Source: Strigops habroptila (Eukaryota; Chordata; Aves; Psittaciformes; Psittacidae). Taken from it: 64,000 nt of DNA. Under the pieces are notes generated by a model. The model worked only from the letters and a program-made list of their open reading frames with translations. It ran no database searches and was not told where the DNA came from. Made by a program: the position numbers and the translations under genes. Shown here one piece after another: positions 32,913 to 42,080 of the stretch. The stretch spans positions 18,696,402 through 18,760,401 of the forward strand of contig NC_044301.2 in the NCBI RefSeq assembly GCF_004027225.2. The letters run 5' to 3'. Numbering within the stretch: the first letter of the stretch is position 1; every line of letters starts with the position of its first letter.

Positions 32913-32955
32913 GCGAGACAGCTCTGTCCACAGGGGGATGAACCCTGGGTCCCTC

Positions 32956-33671
32956 TGTTAGATATATAGAGTAATTAGACTTGTGAGTTGCTTGATTTAT
33001 GTTCCGTTAAGCCTGTTGCTAACAGTTTGAAACTTGCTGAGTTTTTTTTAGTACCGCATAAAAAGTCCTGACAGCAAAGACAGACCTTGGCCGAGCTGGG
33101 TGTCTGCACTCAAGGCTACTGGAAAGTTTGGTAACTAGGACGTGGAGATAAATATATGAGACTATCCAAGCGAAGCAGTACTCCCCAGGCGAAGCAGTAC
33201 TCCCCAGGTTACTTCAAAGCAGAACCTTTAAGATAAGAAACGAAGATGCATACCAGTACCAGTCAGAAAGAGATAAGAAGAATGCTGGTGAAAGCATCAT
33301 CGTTGGAACCTATCCAGGACTCAAAAGGTGAAAAGTACACAGCGAGGAAGACGTCTTACTTCATCTGAGGAAGACTACTTACTTCATCTTGAGACCCCTG
33401 CCCACGACCACCAGGAGGCACTGCGCAAGCGCAGAACATATGGAAATGACTTTTGTACTCATTATAATACGAAGCGGGGATAGGTCATGAATATGTATCA
33501 GCATAGTGGGAAAGGTGATGCATATGTAATACTTTACAGGATAAATTGTGAGCACGTTGTAACGGTCTTCGGAACCAGATTTGGGTGGGTACCCCTGGTT
33601 CCCGGGGCCTCGGAATAAAGCACCACATATAACCTCCTTAGAGTGGTTATGTGTTCTTCTCTCGGCTAACA
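32956..33671 (+). repeat. 5' LTR of element B
   Basis: 716 bp, TGTTAGAT...GGCTAACA. It contains a perfect 19-bp tandem repeat (33170-33188 and 33189-33207), TATAAT at 33463-33468 and AATAAA at 33614-33619. U3 is therefore about 32956-33490, R ends near 33635 and U5 is short. It differs from the 3' LTR at one site near 33538 (G here, A in the 3' copy). Confidence 0.95.
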
Positions 33672-33675
33672 GTTT

Positions 33676-33693
33676 TGGCGACCCAGATGGGAC
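33676..33693 (+). other. Primer binding site of element B
   Basis: TGGCGACCCAGATGGGAC, four bases after the LTR. It does not match the usual Pro, Gln or Trp sites. The closest tRNA 3' end I can recall is tRNA-Arg(CCU), at about 16 of 18; a serine tRNA is a weaker alternative. Confidence 0.6.
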
Positions 33694-34143
33694 CTCGCGG
33701 GCATTGCTGAGGCGGCTCGCGCATCGATTCAGCTCCAGCCGGCACCGAGTGATTCTCGGGGAGCCATCGACCGCGACCGACCTCCGGTGCTCTCGACGGA
33801 CCAACGGCATTGGTAAGAGACGGTGCTTTATTATTTGGTATTGGTACCATTTCCTGGTCTGGTAAAAGCCTGCCTGTTAGACACGGCGAAAGCTGTGCGT
33901 GGTTGGGCTACGGAGCTCCAGGGGAAGCCTAGGCGCCGTCCGTCAGACAGTGGCGAAAGCCCTGCAGGTTCGGCAACAGTGGTCTGGTCTGGTAAACTAT
34001 TTGGTATAAAGCCTGCAGGTTCAGGCAAACAGTGGTCTGGTTAAGTATTTGGTATACTTTCATGGTCTGGTAAAGTATTTGGTATACTTTCATATTTTGA
34101 AATCGAATTTGTCTGTATTAGCCTGTATTGAAATAAGCTTGGA
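33694..34143 (+). promoter_or_regulatory. Element B leader, candidate packaging region
   Basis: 450 nt between primer site and gag. Two hairpins with GAAA tetraloops can be drawn (33882-33897, and 33948-33964 with a T bulge). They are followed by repeated blocks of GGTCTGGTAAAGTATTTGG and GCCTGCAGGTTC (about 33960-34095). Structure inferred by eye. Confidence 0.4.
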
Positions 34144-35748
34144 ATGTCATCAATACCAAAGTCGTCGCCGTTAGGGTGTATTTTGAGTCACTGGAAGGAG
34201 GGGCGGTTTGGACAAGGGATGCAAAAAGGGAAATTAATTGATTACTGTAATGTGTGGTGGACGCAATATAAATTAGAGGATCAAGTCCACTGGCCGGAGA
34301 ATGGAACTTTAGACTATGATACGATTATGCAATTAATGTCATTTTGCAAACGGGAAGGAAAGTGGGACGAGGTCCCATATGTGGAACTGTTCTTTATGTT
34401 AAGGGACAATGATGAATGGAGAAAGGCGTGTGGAATAATGGTTGTTAATACAAAATCGAGTGAGCAATGTAAAGGCTGTGTGGGTGAGAAGAAATGTATG
34501 GGATGCATGGCTGTGAATAATGTTTTGCGACATCAGAAAGATGATGATGATTCTGATTTGTTGATAGCCCCACCAGCCCCGTCAGTCCCACCTGCTTTAA
34601 GAAGCAGGAAAGTAAGGGATGACAGTGATGACGAGAATCTAGAAGTAGATAAAGGATGTGAATGTAGAAAAGAACGGGAATATCCCGTCACCCCAGTTTC
34701 ACATCGGACCCGACAGCGAGATATGCAGGGTAAAGAGGCAAGGATTCAAACGTCCAGTGCATTATTGGCGCCGCTCCGTCAGGGAGTAGGAGCAGAGGGA
34801 CCTGTGTATGTTAAAGTTCCTTTTTCCCCAGGAGATTTGGTGCTTTGGAAACAATCTGCTGGGGCTTATCGAGAAAATCCAAGTAAGGTGGCTAGGGTGG
34901 TAAAAATGATCTTGAAAACCCAGAATCCTGACTGGGATGATATACAAGTATTGCTGGATACCCTGATGGACTCTACAGAAAAAGAGATGGTGCTAAGGAC
35001 AGCGCGAGAACGAGTTAGGGAGGATATCAGGCAGGGTGTCGTCACCGGGACGGTCGATCAGAATTTCCCTATGGAGGATCCTATGTGGGATTATAATACC
35101 GTGGTAGGGATGAGTCGTCTGAAGAGATACCAGGATTGGATAGTGGTTGGGGTACAGAATGCTATGCCAAGAACAATAAATTGGTCAAAGTTATATAATG
35201 TCAGACAGGAAAAGACAGAATCTCCGTCCGTGTTTTTGGAGCGACTTAAAGAAGTGGCCAGGAAATATACGGATCTTGATGTGGAAACGGAACAGGCTAA
35301 GGCTCAGCTGGCTCTAATTTTCCTAGGGCAATCTCAGGATGATATCAGGAAGAAGTTGCAGAAATTAGAGGGTGCTGAATTGCGTGATTTGGATAAGCTG
35401 CTGGAAACAGCCTGGAAAGTATATAATAACCGAGAAAGAGATGGTGTTCAAAGGCAGCAGTGACATCTATTGGCTATAATGCAAAGCAGAGGACAAGGTA
35501 CCCCTGGTAATAGGGGTAGAGGTAGAGGAATGATGCGTGGGCGAGGAAGAGGATTTGGAACACTTAATAATCCAGGGTCAGGATCAGGCAGATTAGGCAT
35601 TAATCAATGTGCCTATTGTAAACAGGAGGGGCATTGGAAAAATGAATGCCCTCAGAGACTGAGACAGAACCCGCAATCTGGATACTCCTTCGGGGAATCC
35701 GAGGTGGCAAAAGCCATGGTTCTGGGAGAATATGGGAGTCAGAGCTGA
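34144..35748 (+). pseudogene. gag: Element B gag, one internal nonsense codon
   Basis: From the ATG at 34144 the frame runs 439 codons to TGA at 35461-35463. It then stays open in the same frame to a second TGA at 35746-35748. The first part has a tryptophan-rich start without a myristoylation glycine, a double CXXC cluster (C109, C112, C118, C121), an acidic/proline linker, and a gammaretrovirus-type capsid (SPGDLVLWKQ). A major-homology-like region (SPSVFLERLKEVARKY) follows. The nucleocapsid lies after the internal stop: a Gly/Arg-rich segment with one CCHC knuckle (CAYCKQEGHWKNEC). The internal TGA would remove nucleocapsid and Pol from the main product, so this copy is probably defective. 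No PPXY or PTAP late motif was seen. Confidence 0.85.
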
Positions 35749-38700
35749 CTAGAATCGGAAAAGGGTGAACCACTAGTGAAAATAAGGCTGGGGGGAGAGG
35801 AGGTACAATTTTTAGTCGATACTGGTGCAACTTATTCTGTGTTAAATGACCTGTATGGGAAAATAGGGGATAAGACTACCACAATAATAGGGGCCACAGG
35901 GAGAGAGGAGGTGCGGTCATTCATGCGACCCCTGGAATTACGGTTTGGGGGAAAGGAATTGATACATGAGTTTCTATACATGCCGGACTGTCCTGTTTCC
36001 CTGTTGGGACGAGATTTATTATCAAAATTAAACGCTAAAATTATTTTTGAAAATGGGGAATTGATTATGCAGGTACCGGAATCACAATCCGGACAGATAC
36101 TAGTGTTAAAGAACAGTCCAAATGCCCGGATACCTAGGGAAGTAGAGGAAGCAGTGATTCCCACAGTTTGGGAAACAGAAATTCCGGGAAAATCAAAGAT
36201 GGCTCAGCCGGTAGTAGTGGAACTGAAAGAAGGGGTGAGACCAGTACGGATAAAACAATATCCCATAAAATTGGAGGCACGATATGGGATAGTTAAAACG
36301 ATTGAGAAATTTTTAAAGTTTGGAATTTTAGAAGAATGTGAATCAGAATATAACACACCAATTTTTCCAGTAAAGAAACCGAATGGTGAATACAGGTTAG
36401 TACAGGACCTAAGGGCAATAAATGAAATAACAAAGGATATCTATCCGGTAGTGGCTAATCCATATACATTGTTGACATCTGTAAAGGAGAAATATAAATG
36501 GTTCACAGTAATTGATTTAAAAGATGCTTTCTTCTGCATCCCCCTTGACAAAGGTAGTAGGAAACTCTTTGCCTTTGAATGGGAAAACCCGCACAATGGA
36601 CGTAAGACTCAGTTAACCTGGACGAGACTCCCACAAGGATTCAAGAATAGCCCGACGCTTTTTGGAAATCAGCTGGCGAAAGAATTGGAACTCTGGGTAA
36701 CTCAAGGGAAAATTCAGGTACCAAGAACACAATATCTCTTATTGCAATATGTAGATGATATATTCATTGCAACTGAACAAGAATCACTGTGCGTACGAGT
36801 AACAATAGAGATCCTGAATCAATTGGGACTAAATGGGTATAAGGTTTCGAGGGAGAAAGCCCAGATTGCCTGCACTACTGTAATGTATTTGGGCTGTGAA
36901 ATCTCCCAGGGACAACGGAGGTTGGGAATTGATCGTATAAAGGCAATTTGTGCTATTCCAGAGCCTCGGAATTTACATGAACTGAGAACATTCCTTGGAA
37001 TGGCGGGTTGGTGCAGGTTATGGATATCGGACTATGGACTGATAGCTAAACCTTTATATGAGGCACAGAAATCTCAGACCTTCGTTTGGGAAGGGTCCCA
37101 AAAGGAAGCTTTTAAGAAGCTAAAAGAAGCGTTAATAAAAGCACCTGCCCTGGGATTACCGGATTTAACCAAGGACTTCCAGCTGTTTGTGCACGAGAGA
37201 CAGAGATTGGCATTGGGAGTTCTGACGCAGAGACTGGGAAGCTGGAAGCGACCAGTGGGATACTTCTCCAAACAGCTGGATCCGGTAAGTGCTGGATGGC
37301 CATCGTGCCTACGAGCAGTAGCAGCAACAGTGACATTAATACAAGAAGTAAGAAAATTGACCTTAGGAAAACATATTGATGTATATGTGCCACACATGGT
37401 AATGACTGTCTTAGAACAAAAAGGGGGGTACTGGCTATCCCCAAGTCGGATGATGAAATACCAGGCAGTATTAACTGAACAAGATGATGTGACTCTAAAG
37501 ACGACTAACTTGTTGAATCCAGCAGCTTTTCTAGGTACAAACACAGAGGACGGCATATTAGAACACGATTGTGTGGAGACGATTGAATATACATATGCGA
37601 CGAGGGCCGATTTGAAGGATGCCCCACTTGAGCAACCTGATCAGGAACTTTTTACTGATGGAAGCAGTTTTGTGGAAGGTGGGGTCCGTTATGCTGGGTA
37701 TGCAGTAACTACACAAAACGCCCTAATAGAAGCAAAAGCTTTGCCCCCAGGGACTTCAGCACAACGGGCAGAGATAATAGCTCTCACCAGAGCTTTAGAA
37801 CTGAGCAAAGGAAAGCGGGTAAATATATGGACTGATTCGAAATATGCATTCGGTGTGGTCCATATACATGGAGCTCTATGGAAGGAACGAGGGCTCCTGT
37901 CCTCACAAGGGACAAATATAAAATACCAAAGGGAAGTTCTGAATTTAATAACTGCTGTGCAATTACCAGAACAGGTGGCTATCATGCACTGTAAAGCGCA
38001 TCAAGGAGGAAGTTCTAAGATAGCCGAAGGAAATACATTTGCGGATCGGATGGCTAGACGAATTGCACGACAGGTACAGACAGTTATGGCTCTGATACCA
38101 ACGAAGGTAAGCCCATTACAGAATTATATGAACCAAAAACCAAGATATTCAGAAGAAGATGTTAAATTGGCTGAATTAGTAAAGGCTCGATTGAACTCGG
38201 AAGGATGGTACGTAACCACTACTGGACAAGTGGTAGTACCACCTGCCATCATGCGGACAATTTTACAAACCGAACATCAAAAATGTCATTGGGGGGCAGA
38301 GGCATTGGTAACATATTTAAAACGAGGAATGATCTCTATACAGATGTTAACAATGGCAAAATCCATAGGATCTAAATGTGAAATTTGTTTGAAAAATAAC
38401 CCAGTAGTCAAGAGGAAAGTAGAAATGGGACACATCAGGGTAGGTATGGAGCCGGGTGACTATTGGCAAATTGATTTTGTGGAATTACCCAAGACACAGG
38501 GATACCGATACTTGTTAGTAGGGGTTGACACTTTTTCTGGATGGCCAGAAGCCTCTCCCTGTCGCACCAATCAGGCTAAGGAAACAGTGAAATGGTTGTT
38601 GAAAGAGATCATCCCTAGATTCGGAGTCCCGTTGGGTATATCATCAGATAGAGGACCGCATTTTACATCAACTATAGTTCAGGAAGTCAGTAAACTGTTA

Positions 38701-39279
38701 GGAATATCCTGGAATCTTCATACCCCATGGAGGCCACAGTCCAGTGGACAGGTGGAAAAGATGAATCAAACAATTAAAAGACAGATAAGCAAAATATGCC
38801 AGGAGGCTAAAATAAAATGGCCACAGGCATTACCAATAGCCCTTTTAAGGATCAGAATTAAACCTAGAAGTGGAATGATGGTAAGCCCATATGAGATCCT
38901 GTTTGGAAAGCCATATGAGGCTCCCCAGCCAAACCCACATGTACATATCAAAGGAACTCAGGATGTACATAATTACGTGTTATCTCTCAGTAGAACTTTG
39001 ATCCGGTTGTGTAGTGCCCTGATCTGGAACCGACCGCTCTCGTTGGAGACTCCAGTACACGAGATCGAGCCAGGAGACCAAGTCTACGTTCGTGATTGGA
39101 GCGAGGAACCACTTAAGGAACGGTGGAATGGACCGTACCTGGTGCTGTTAACTACCTTCACCGCTGTAAAAGTGGAAGGAATTAACTCCTGGATTCACTA
39201 CACTAGAGTGAAGAAAGTCCCGAAACATTGGGAATCAGAAGCCTTAGGACCTACGAAGCTGAGACTGAAATGCAGATAA
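35749..39279 (+). CDS. pol: Element B pro-pol (protease, RT, RNase H, integrase)
   Basis: 1,176 open codons follow the gag terminator in the same frame; there is no start of its own, so expression is expected by readthrough. Order: aspartic protease (FLVDTGATYSVL, near residue 20), RT with TRLPQGFKNSP and a YVDD catalytic box (about residue 330), connection, and RNase H (LFTDGSS; WTDSKYAFGVV). Integrase follows with an HHCC zinc module (HX3H; CEIC), the D,D,E triad (WQIDFVE, SSDRGPHF, SSGQVEKMN) and a C-terminal GPY/F module (WNGPYLVL). No stop or frameshift. Integrase ends only 1 nt before env instead of overlapping it. Confidence 0.93.
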   Translation, partial: LESEKGEPLVKIRLGGEEVQFLVDTGATYSVLNDLYGKIGDKTTTIIGATGREEVRSFMRPLELRFGGKELIHEFLYMPDCPVSLLGRDLLSKLNAKIIFENGELIMQVPESQSGQILVLKNSPNARIPREVEEAVIPTVWETEIPGKSKMAQPVVVELKEGVRPVRIKQYPIKLEARYGIVKTIEKFLKFGILEECESEYNTPIFPVKKPNGEYRLVQDLRAINEITKDIYPVVANPYTLLTSVKEKYKWFTVIDLKDAFFCIPLDKGSRKLFAFEWENPHNGRKTQLTWTRLPQGFKNSPTLFGNQLAKELELWVTQGKIQVPRTQYLLLQYVDDIFIATEQESLCVRVTIEILNQLGLNGYKVSREKAQIACTTVMYLGCEISQGQRRLGIDRIKAICAIPEPRNLHELRTFLGMAGWCRLWISDYGLIAKPLYEAQKSQTFVWEGSQKEAFKKLKEALIKAPALGLPDLTKDFQLFVHERQRLALGVLTQRLGSWKRPVGYFSKQLDPVSAGWPSCLRAVAATVTLIQEVRKLTLGKHIDVYVPHMVMTVLEQKGGYWLSPSRMMKYQAVLTEQDDVTLKTTNLLNPAAFLGTNTEDGILEHDCVETIEYTYATRADLKDAPLEQPDQELFTDGSSFVEGGVRYAGYAVTTQNALIEAKALPPGTSAQRAEIIALTRALELSKGKRVNIWTDSKYAFGVVHIHGALWKERGLLSSQGTNIKYQREVLNLITAVQLPEQVAIMHCKAHQGGSSKIAEGNTFADRMARRIARQVQTVMALIPTKVSPLQNYMNQKPRYSEEDVKLAELVKARLNSEGWYVTTTGQVVVPPAIMRTILQTEHQKCHWGAEALVTYLKRGMISIQMLTMAKSIGSKCEICLKNNPVVKRKVEMGHIRVGMEPGDYWQIDFVELPKTQGYRYLLVGVDTFSGWPEASPCRTNQAKETVKWLLKEIIPRFGVPLGISSDRGPHFTSTIVQEVSKLLGISWNLHTPWRPQSSGQVEKMNQTIKRQISKICQEAKIKWPQALPIALLRIRIKPRSGMMVSPYEILFGKPYEAPQPNPHVHIKGTQDVHNYVLSLSRTLIRLCSALIWNRPLSLETPVHEIEPGDQVYVRDWSEEPLKERWNGPYLVLLTTFTAVKVEGINSWIHYTRVKKVPKHWESEALGPTKLRLKCR

Positions 39280-39280
39280 G

Positions 39281-41320
39281 ATGTCGTGTTATATGTATAG
39301 CACTGTAATTGTGATTTGGTTAGTCTTACCTATAATAATTGTTGGTTCCTTAGAAGTTTCATTAAAAAGGGAGGTGGTGACGTATATTGTTGGACAAAAT
39401 GCCACTCTGTCTTGCAGGTTTACCGTGCCAATGGGAGGAGAACTAATAAGGGTTATCTGGGAAAAGGAATCGGAAAGTTTTGAAGTACCTGAGATAATTT
39501 TCGACAGCAAGGACAAAGGATTAGTAGGGCATGAACAGGAGTTGCAGGAAAATTGGCAATCTAGAAGTAAAGTAATGAACAGGCTCTGGTCACGAAATCT
39601 TACTGAAGGAGAGACTAAATTAAGGATAGCCAATCTGACTGAACAAATGCGGGGAAAATATCGTTGTCTGGTCAAGACAAACAATAGTATAGACTACGGT
39701 GAGAAGATAATATACATTACTAAAACTAGAATCAGACGAGCTATAAAACCGGCCGAATCACCCCAGATAATTCAGGTACCCCAGCGTGATCCGGAAGAAA
39801 ATCTAATGATAGGATTAATCAAAGATTTTGCAAAAATGCAAAATACAAGCAGAATAACGGCATGCCTCCCAATACCAAAAGCAGCTGGAGAACCGATTGA
39901 GTGGGGAATAATAACAATACCACTCCCAGAAGAAGACAAGACAGTTAAGTGTCAGGAGATAGAGGTGATAAAAAACGTAACAAAAACAGAATATGACAGA
40001 AAGGGACTCATGGGCCCTATATTAAAATCATGGTGTGAACAGCAATTAAACTTTCAATTCACACAGAAAGGACCAGGAGTAGGTGAATGTATATATGATG
40101 AAAAAATTGAAGTAAAAACACAGACAAAAGAAATAACCTGGAACTGTCAAACAAAGGACAATTTGGAACAAAATTGGGATACAATTTGGTCACTGAGTAT
40201 TGTACAAAAATTTCGGTATGGTGGAAACACATCTTGGTGTCTCAGATGGTCAGGGAAATATAATATAGCAGGAAATACGAACCTGTTGTCATTAGACAGA
40301 GTCAGTCTAGATACTGTTAAAAATGTTCCTTGGTGGAATTGCACCAGAATAATGGATTGTGATACTGATCCAGAAAAGATTGCAATGCCCCCAATTAGAA
40401 TTGCTTTAAAGGTAGGATGTGCATGCCGAGGATTTAAAGTTGGAGGAAAACCGATACAAGCCCCGGCTGATGGAATAAACTGCAGACATTTGATGATACA
40501 TAGCATGGGACATCTTGTTTGGGCACTCAGTGATGGTACCTGGACCACTCACCTTCCAATAACAGGGCCAGTGCGGGAAATTACCTTAGGACTCCCCACT
40601 TTATGTCCAATCTGGAAACGTTCCCCATTCAGGGGCAAACTAGAAACTTTGCAGATTCGAACCAAAAGAAGTATTGACGATGATATAGACAATATAGATG
40701 ACACTTGGCAAGAGCCTGAGACAGGAGTGAAAGTAGGATGGGCACTTGAATCCCTTTTTGTTCAAATAGCTGCATATCGCAATAGGGAAGCGATTTATAA
40801 TTTAATTGGACAAACTGAGAGATTGGCCAAGGTGACTAAAAAAGGCTTTAGGGATCTAAATTTGCAATTACAGGCAACAACCAAAATGACTCTGCAAAAC
40901 AGAATGGCATTAGACACATTGCTGTTAAAGGAACATGGTGTTTGTGGATATCTCAAAGATAGAATCGATCACTGCTGTGTACATATACCAAACGTAACTG
41001 CAGATATAGAATATGACATTGCTCAATTAGGGAAAATTGAAGAGGAGGCTGACAAGGAAAAGGAAGAAATAAGTCAAAATTGGGTAGGAGCATTATTTGA
41101 TGGATTGGGAATTCACCTTACTGGGTGGATTCATTCCCTCATAGAGACAGTGTGTACCCTATTGCTTGTGTTCCTCGTAATCTATTTGGTATATTTTTGC
41201 ATTCGAAGAGAAATAACCCGGAATACCAGTTGGACACATAAAATCATTGGAGCAGTGACACGAGAATATCCACGACACCCAATAACTCCTCCTCTTACCT
41301 ATCAGGAAACTACTACATGA
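39281..41320 (+). CDS. env: Element B envelope with N-terminal Ig V-set-like domain
   Basis: 679 codons, open throughout. A signal peptide (about residues 1-23) is followed by a stretch with V-set immunoglobulin hallmarks: GQNATLSCRF (C45), a core W60, KLRIANL (about 113-119) and GKYRC (C129). The rest of the surface subunit is cysteine-rich with many N-glycosylation sites. A furin-type RTKR site ends at residue 463. The transmembrane subunit has an immunosuppressive-domain-like LQNRMALDTLLLKEHGVC followed by C555-X9-C565-C566, a membrane span (about 617-641) and a 38-residue tail. There is no hydrophobic stretch directly after the cleavage site, so any fusion peptide would be internal. I do not recognise an Env with this N-terminal arrangement. 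Confidence 0.92.
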   Translation: MSCYMYSTVIVIWLVLPIIIVGSLEVSLKREVVTYIVGQNATLSCRFTVPMGGELIRVIWEKESESFEVPEIIFDSKDKGLVGHEQELQENWQSRSKVMNRLWSRNLTEGETKLRIANLTEQMRGKYRCLVKTNNSIDYGEKIIYITKTRIRRAIKPAESPQIIQVPQRDPEENLMIGLIKDFAKMQNTSRITACLPIPKAAGEPIEWGIITIPLPEEDKTVKCQEIEVIKNVTKTEYDRKGLMGPILKSWCEQQLNFQFTQKGPGVGECIYDEKIEVKTQTKEITWNCQTKDNLEQNWDTIWSLSIVQKFRYGGNTSWCLRWSGKYNIAGNTNLLSLDRVSLDTVKNVPWWNCTRIMDCDTDPEKIAMPPIRIALKVGCACRGFKVGGKPIQAPADGINCRHLMIHSMGHLVWALSDGTWTTHLPITGPVREITLGLPTLCPIWKRSPFRGKLETLQIRTKRSIDDDIDNIDDTWQEPETGVKVGWALESLFVQIAAYRNREAIYNLIGQTERLAKVTKKGFRDLNLQLQATTKMTLQNRMALDTLLLKEHGVCGYLKDRIDHCCVHIPNVTADIEYDIAQLGKIEEEADKEKEEISQNWVGALFDGLGIHLTGWIHSLIETVCTLLLVFLVIYLVYFCIRREITRNTSWTHKIIGAVTREYPRHPITPPLTYQETTT

Positions 41321-41352
41321 GTGAAAATACTTGCAAAAGATGAAGTATTTTC

Positions 41353-41364
41353 AAAGGGGGGAAA
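41353..41364 (+). other. Polypurine tract of element B
   Basis: AAAGGGGGGAAA directly before the 3' LTR, 32 nt after the env stop codon. Confidence 0.9.
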
Positions 41365-42080
41365 TGTTAGATATATAGAGTAATTAGACTTGTGAGTTGC
41401 TTGATTTATGTTCCGTTAAGCCTGTTGCTAACAGTTTGAAACTTGCTGAGTTTTTTTTAGTACCGCATAAAAAGTCCTGACAGCAAAGACAGACCTTGGC
41501 CGAGCTGGGTGTCTGCACTCAAGGCTACTGGAAAGTTTGGTAACTAGGACGTGGAGATAAATATATGAGACTATCCAAGCGAAGCAGTACTCCCCAGGCG
41601 AAGCAGTACTCCCCAGGTTACTTCAAAGCAGAACCTTTAAGATAAGAAACGAAGATGCATACCAGTACCAGTCAGAAAGAGATAAGAAGAATGCTGGTGA
41701 AAGCATCATCGTTGGAACCTATCCAGGACTCAAAAGGTGAAAAGTACACAGCGAGGAAGACGTCTTACTTCATCTGAGGAAGACTACTTACTTCATCTTG
41801 AGACCCCTGCCCACGACCACCAGGAGGCACTGCGCAAGCGCAGAACATATGGAAATGACTTTTGTACTCATTATAATACGAAGCGGGGATAGGTCATGAA
41901 TATGTATCAGCATAGTGGGAAAGGTGATGCATATGTAATACTTTACAAGATAAATTGTGAGCACGTTGTAACGGTCTTCGGAACCAGATTTGGGTGGGTA
42001 CCCCTGGTTCCCGGGGCCTCGGAATAAAGCACCACATATAACCTCCTTAGAGTGGTTATGTGTTCTTCTCTCGGCTAACA
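41365..42080 (+). repeat. 3' LTR of element B
   Basis: 716 bp, identical to the 5' LTR except one base near 41947. AATAAA is at 42023-42028, and the 19-bp tandem repeat is at 41579-41616. Confidence 0.95.

Follow-up and report, generated by a model that had tools for sequence, protein, structure and literature searches.

A retroviral Env with an immunoglobulin V-set domain

The window analysed here is a stretch of 64,000 nucleotides from contig NC_044301.2 of the kakapo (Strigops habroptila), and it holds a provirus at positions 32956-42080 with two 716-base long terminal repeats (LTRs), gag, pol, env and a polypurine tract. The envelope protein (Env) of this provirus, which equals the kakapo protein LOC115604890 at 677 of 679 residues, carries an immunoglobulin (Ig) V-set domain between its signal peptide and its surface (SU) and transmembrane (TM) subunits. 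The parts of env are as follows.

39281..41320, + strand: env, 679 amino acids, unbroken open reading frame (TLV_coat, 2.6e-7)
39281..39346, + strand: signal peptide, residues 1-22, hydrophobic from residue 8, cleavage point inferred
39347..39721, + strand: Ig V-set domain, residues 23-147 (C45, W60, C129), by pattern, profile and predicted fold
39728..39739, + strand: putative furin-type site RIRR, residues 150-153, at the boundary of Ig module and SU (motif; position conserved)
39740..40669, + strand: SU core, residues 154-463, with a conserved ENLMIGLIKDFAKMQN block from residue 173 (17-Env alignment)
40658..40669, + strand: SU/TM furin-type site RTKR, residues 460-463 (motif)
40670..41317, + strand: TM, residues 464-679, with an immunosuppressive-domain (ISD)-like block and CX9CC (TLV_coat match at 524-646)

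An earlier note, made from the letters alone, had recognized a V-set signature in the Env N terminus, and every element of it is in place: G38-QNATLS-C45, W60, L114-R-I116 and G125-K-Y-R-C129, with C129 84 residues past C45. The two cysteines and the tryptophan are invariant across 12 aligned first Ig domains, and the canonical C - W - YxC pattern is complete (C45, W60, Y127-R-C129). The Pfam check proposed in that note gave a divided result. With residues 24-149 as the query, the ig family (PF00047) passed its cut-off of 21.8 (2.8e-5, 24.8 bits), on this segment only, and Ig_3 stayed under its cut-off of 30 (8e-6, 26.7 bits); on the whole Env, all Ig families were weaker and under cut-off (6.3e-4 to 3.3e-3). 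The V-set family fell short for the window copy but, when its Pfam model was run on the whole genome, reached 32.5 bits against a cut-off of 26 in two sister kakapo Envs, L016 (C25:7455097) and L015 (C25:23526816). A hidden Markov model (HMM) of first domains taken from 14 other Envs matched the kakapo domain at 2.3e-11, compared with 0.16 for the best of 500 shuffled sequences, so the Ig match goes beyond chance.

Structure prediction of the Env N terminus yielded the V-set fold anticipated by the earlier note. In an AlphaFold model of the Ig domain alone, the strands reached a predicted local distance difference test (pLDDT) score of about 80-88 and were predicted to pack as a beta-sandwich in which strands B and F hold the two cysteines. 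Searched with Foldseek against the PDB, this model returned PD-L1 in all of the first 21 rows. Fold comparisons rest on the Ig-only model because modelling of the full-length Env gave a poor result (pLDDT 52.5); a fold search with that model returned nothing at E <=0.001.

The rest of the protein is a retroviral Env. TLV_coat matched residues 524-646 at 30.2 bits (cut-off 22.5), which together with the ISD-like block identifies a gamma-type TM. Typical gamma-type Envs have CX6CC in TM and CXXC in SU, the latter absent in alpharetroviruses, according to passages in PMC9967133. By contrast, the window Env and every relative with a CXnCC motif have CX9CC, and none of 18 Env proteins scanned, several of them partial, has CXXC in SU. 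The Ig domain bears N-glycosylation sequons at residues 40, 106, 118 and 134. From this V domain the protein passes straight to the SU core, without the constant domain of B7 proteins; it has a B7-like V domain yet is not a B7 protein.

A conserved furin-type motif adjoins the Ig module

The motif that separates Ig module and SU in the window copy recurs at the same place in related Envs. Within 30 residues before the SU anchor, RxxR was found in 28 of 32 proteins and either RxxR or [RK]x[RK]R in 31 of 32, compared with 18 and 19, respectively, of 256 control windows. This count omits P0037, P0038, P0040 and P0044 as copies of P0023: the first three are identical to it over the 60 residues before the anchor, and P0044 over the 40 compared. 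The only cysteines in the Ig part of the window copy are its two disulfide cysteines. If RIRR is used, the Ig part would thus be held noncovalently or shed, since it has no spare cysteine.

Between the window copy and L015, a well separated pair, the ratio of nonsynonymous to synonymous substitution rates (dN/dS) was 0.44 for the Ig domain, 0.25 for SU and 0.14 for TM. Judged by codon changes, the Ig domain is constrained, less so than SU and TM.

Ig-bearing Envs in the kakapo and other birds

In the 1.15 Gb of kakapo genome searched, the domain occurs at at least 22 loci (26 search rows merged), 14 of them on contig 25, the contig of the window. Contig 25 is probably the W chromosome. Bird W chromosomes accumulate full-length endogenous retroviruses (ERVs), and the kakapo is among the species studied, as stated in parts of PMC8310711. 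Of the 22 loci we examined the window copy and 20 others, leaving out one partial locus, and found an intact full-length Env frame in 8 of these 21 copies. Two intact copies, L004 and L005, encode Envs of 699 amino acids whose Ig domain and TM are near-identical to those of the window copy and whose SU core is 20 residues longer; a synonymous divergence (dS) of about 0.11 in the SU core, against 0.01-0.05 in Ig domain and TM, suggests recombination within env.

Two protein searches with the full Env returned 20 and 29 rows, and all named source organisms among the rows listed were birds. A Pfam scan of 20 relatives gave an Ig family at E <=1e-3 in 13, with 10 over a curated Ig cut-off. The relatives have in common an SU core that starts with EN(L/V)xxGL and, where complete, the TM. 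Ahead of this one type of SU core, our reading of the alignment places between zero and three Ig domains: one, two or three in songbird Envs; a complete last and a truncated first domain in a cuckoo gene model; and the tail of a first domain plus two further domains in a mousebird fragment. P0003 and P0005 (Ammospiza and Prinia) lack Ig domains, yet still begin with a hydrophobic stretch and keep a short linker and the furin-type site. Annotation lists these proteins as uncharacterized, hypothetical or Ig-like. The module that the earlier note described for this one young provirus, its provirus B, is thus real but not private to it: it is old and shared among bird Envs, in numbers from zero to three.

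In a midpoint-rooted tree of the Env core (25 sequences), single-domain members stand beside three-domain members in clades with support of 86-100. Because members with one and three domains share clades, domains appear to have been lost recurrently, with the caution that some of these proteins are gene models.

Two variations at the N terminus were seen among the relatives. P0009, P0006, P0026, P0028, P0031, P0033 and P0041 share a conserved basic extension before the signal peptide (residues 1 to about 65). This songbird-type extension, about MGRxxxxDxDxLHGSxxRRNRQLDPLHSGQE, does not occur in the kakapo; it resembles a long leader, perhaps with a separate function. P0004, a duck protein (Anas), has the common SU core, preceded, in the place of an Ig module, by a region before residue 553 that lacks a Pfam Ig match and ends in a furin-type RDKR.

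Correspondence of Ig domains between viral lineages

The 14-sequence first-domain HMM gave 2.8e-13 for P0039 (first domain), 2.4e-7 and worse for second and third domains, and 1.1e-6 for an older kakapo copy, L019; the truncated cuckoo first domain was absent among the rows listed. An HMM built from four third domains matched the second Ig domain of L019 at 3.6e-9. These profile matches pair the parrot domain with the first domain of songbird Envs, and the second domain of kakapo two-domain copies with the songbird third. Because both HMMs match across lineages, the first and last domains would have been present in an ancestor common to parrot and songbird viruses, or have been exchanged between them. 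When the one-domain copies (window and L015) are aligned with two-domain copies (L017 and L019), the second domain appears as a single clean in-frame gap of 285 bases, or 95 codons; elsewhere these copies differ by substitutions and small indels. P0019 was omitted from the second structure alignment, as its first domain is truncated and was misaligned.

The songbird middle domain (for example, about residues 171-278 of P0026) is rich in tryptophan and has extra cysteines. It has no clear relative in the PDB (best E 0.16) and resembles the first domain (2.4e-7 in P0006), as if duplicated and remodelled. The songbird third domain matches CEACAM- and titin-type domains in the PDB.

Similarity to host B7 domains

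The earlier note had likened the domain to B7 and butyrophilin V domains, and this resemblance was borne out. A 12-sequence first-domain profile run against the PDB had the V domain of B7-H3 as its best single-domain match (1.9e-10), followed by PD-L2 and PD-L1 among the single-domain matches listed, and the kakapo domain, used as a single sequence, matched butyrophilin 2A1 best in the PDB. Structural alignments gave about 13-28% identity to B7 and butyrophilin chains.

We next ranked the V-set loci of the host itself. A genome scan with the Pfam V-set model gave 146 rows, of which two were Env copies, leaving 144 loci; of the 466 candidates from its first look, 150 were scored, and some host V-sets may have escaped it. 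Against these 144 loci, the top three matches of the 12-sequence profile were PD-L1 (3.9e-13), B7-H3 (1.9e-11) and a further B7-type exon, L095 (5.1e-9), in the same order as on an initial 110 of them. The identity of the three comes from PDB matches at 1.3e-34, 1.1e-87 and 4.9e-17, respectively. A 14-sequence profile without kakapo sequences again placed PD-L1 and B7-H3 first and L095 fifth.

Other searches for relatives returned little. A host-gene search by query region found the kakapo Env itself in one of 93 candidates and nothing else; a songbird first domain as query drew five matches from the kakapo genome, all weak (E >=2.49), of which four were Envs and the fifth a frame with stops; and one Env query against viral contigs returned no relative.

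The provirus that carries the env

Gammaretrovirus-like organization is evident in MLV (murine leukaemia virus)-type pol, a 4-base target duplication and a single gag/pol frame with a stop between. The remaining features are as follows.

32956..33671, + strand: 5' LTR, 716 bp (repeat and base-by-base comparison to the 3' LTR)
33676..33693, + strand: probable primer binding site, starting with TGG 4 bases past the LTR (position and TGG)
34144..35463, + strand: gag open frame with matrix (MA) and p30 capsid and an in-frame stop before nucleocapsid (Pfam Gag_p30, 4.4e-45)
35776..39279, + strand: pol, with protease, reverse transcriptase, RNase H and integrase with MLV-type C terminus (Pfam RVP, RVT_1, RNase_H, rve, MLVIN_C)
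41353..41364, + strand: polypurine tract AAAGGGGGGAAA
41365..42080, + strand: 3' LTR, 716 bp, then CCTC (repeat and base-by-base comparison)

The earlier note's description of this provirus as young stands, since its LTRs (32956-33671 and 41365-42080) differ at 1 of 716 bases in a base-by-base comparison; it is flanked by CCTC as target duplication, the 5' copy at 32952-32955. MLVIN_C matches pol at 1.7e-18. The provirus is not fully intact, because gag has an in-frame stop at the boundary of capsid and nucleocapsid (35461-35463), with a zinc knuckle downstream in the same frame and a second stop at 35746-35748. In the region 35401-35790, gag and pol lie in one frame, with the extra, earlier stop upstream of the gag/pol stop. 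Elsewhere in the window (1-5.6 kb, 18-25 kb, 45-51 kb and 62-64 kb) there are further repeats in multiple direct and inverted copies, with inverted arms 84-97% complementary, probably from at least one additional ERV family.

Origin and role of the Ig module

We lean towards an old, host-derived B7-type module that is an accessory, furin-separable part of Env and serves attachment or immune modulation. On this account, the first Ig domain would descend from a host B7-family V domain of the PD-L1/B7-H3 kind, gained before parrot and songbird viruses diverged or passed from one lineage to the other by recombination, and whole Ig domains would have been lost since acquisition. Furin-type cleavage in the secretory pathway would turn the precursor into Ig module, SU core and TM. 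The module may be accessory, rather than the receptor-binding domain (RBD) that triggers fusion, because Envs without it keep a complete SU core and TM. It might bind a B7-type counter-receptor on the leukocyte surface, which would attach virions to lymphoid cells, blunt immune signalling, or both, with the module on the spike or shed. In a bolder form, for which we see a limited chance, Env would come with a checkpoint ligand of its own. A V domain of the PD-L1/B7-H3 type, captured and borne at the tip of Env, would be freed by furin as a separate subunit and engage PD-1/CD28-type lymphocyte receptors, so that one precursor would provide both targeting and immune suppression; the count of Ig domains (0-3) would be open to evolution in bird retroviruses.

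Several observations weigh against this account. The Pfam V-set family (PF07686) missed its cut-off of 26 on residues 24-149 (3.9e-5, 24.2 bits), and the segment between strands C and D was modelled at pLDDT <50. Env proteins without Ig domains could be annotation products. Compared with the window copy, Ig dN/dS was 1.4 for L004 and 0.83 for L005, from 6 and 8 changes, too few to weigh. Among the PDB matches, multi-domain DIP-alpha, CEACAM and MDGA1 were interspersed with B7 rows by whole-sequence E value. A profile of kakapo domains alone ranked L060 (5.6e-4), L042 (2.1e-3) and then L095 highest among host loci, with PD-L1 seventh and B7-H3 nineteenth; the window domain by itself ranked L081 (the exon best matched by B7-H3's own exon), L060, L095 and PD-L1 at 3.9e-4 to 8.6e-4, with B7-H3 tenth. 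The kakapo-only profile is too divergent to choose among host V-sets. An Ig tree (57 rows, 77 columns), in which viral domains were not with B7, lacks resolution and was weighed neither way on capture. The earlier note's proposal that a host domain was captured draws its support from the family-profile similarity to B7; profiles from the kakapo alone give B7 no clear lead. Origin of the first domain in the B7 family is the reading that we hold most likely.

The kakapo-only rankings slightly lowered our confidence in the preferred account and slightly raised that in a different origin, which we nonetheless hold to be improbable: the module would be the ancestral Ig-like RBD of a gamma-type Env that retained a canonical V-set sequence. 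Retroviral RBDs can show Ig-like topology, and the module is old within the Env family. Yet the family profile places B7 ahead of the host's other V-sets, module and SU are divided by a furin-type motif, and none of the 50 viral Foldseek rows listed, several of them nameless, was named as a retrovirus. It is possible, although doubtful, that the Ig domain is instead the main receptor-binding domain, in the position of an MLV-type RBD, and that the furin-type cut loosens it to trigger fusion. Its N-terminal place is that of gamma-type RBDs, its dN/dS exceeds that of SU and TM, and the Ig-less relatives form a separate branch that may use another receptor; but in some relatives the signal, furin-type site, SU core and TM are all present and an Ig domain is not, the number of Ig domains varies among near relatives, and in the window copy no cysteine is left to retain the domain after cleavage. 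Many relatives are automatic gene models, some of them isoforms, as they would be had an assembly or gene-model artefact fused a host Ig exon to an ERV env. We give this almost no credence: corresponding Ig domains occur in other birds, and for the kakapo it is refuted by the single unbroken frame between near-identical LTRs and by at least 22 loci with the domain, 8 of 21 examined having an intact full-length frame.

Comparison with known systems

Several Ig-domain proteins of DNA viruses derive from immune-gene capture. Those of poxviruses, herpesviruses and adenoviruses (Foldseek, BFVD) are, like the kakapo Env, viral proteins with an Ig fold; they are not retroviral fusion glycoproteins. 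Foamy virus Env is cleaved by furin into leader, SU and TM, and would be alike in its three-part processing if the kakapo motif is used, except that its first part is a membrane-spanning leader, not an Ig domain. Compared with host B7 V domains (PD-L1/CD274, B7-H3/CD276, PD-L2 and butyrophilins), which have the same V-set fold and are the best family-profile matches, the kakapo protein has a retroviral Env after the V domain where B7 proteins have a constant domain. With gamma-type Envs of the MLV, feline leukaemia virus (FeLV), avian leukosis virus (ALV) and human T-lymphotropic virus (HTLV) kind, as presented in parts of PMC9967133, it shares the SU/TM furin-type site, the ISD-like block, TLV_coat and MLV-type pol; it differs in an additional Ig module at the N terminus, marked off by a furin-type motif, in CX9CC and in having no CXXC in SU.

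Retroviruses are known to acquire host genes, and in doing so they usually give up a viral one; in crocodilians, CrocERV31 incorporated host nectin-3 mRNA at the expense of env (passages in PMC4299795). It is also a retrovirus with host Ig-superfamily domains, whereas in the kakapo the Ig domains join a complete Env in frame and do not replace it. A review of Env recombination names the songbird TgERV-F and, in the part of its text available, does not mention immunoglobulin or Ig domains (PMC10536682). Our literature search of titles and abstract starts, with subscription journals mostly outside it, found no paper describing a retroviral Env with an Ig module, which is not proof of novelty.

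Automatic annotation conceals Ig-bearing Envs. Parrot and songbird viruses carry host-type Ig domains in a complete Env, with changes in whole-domain number and a conserved furin-type motif adjoining. As a natural series, they allow one to ask how a retroviral Env profits from an immune-receptor domain, and they may exemplify retroviral mimicry of an immune checkpoint.
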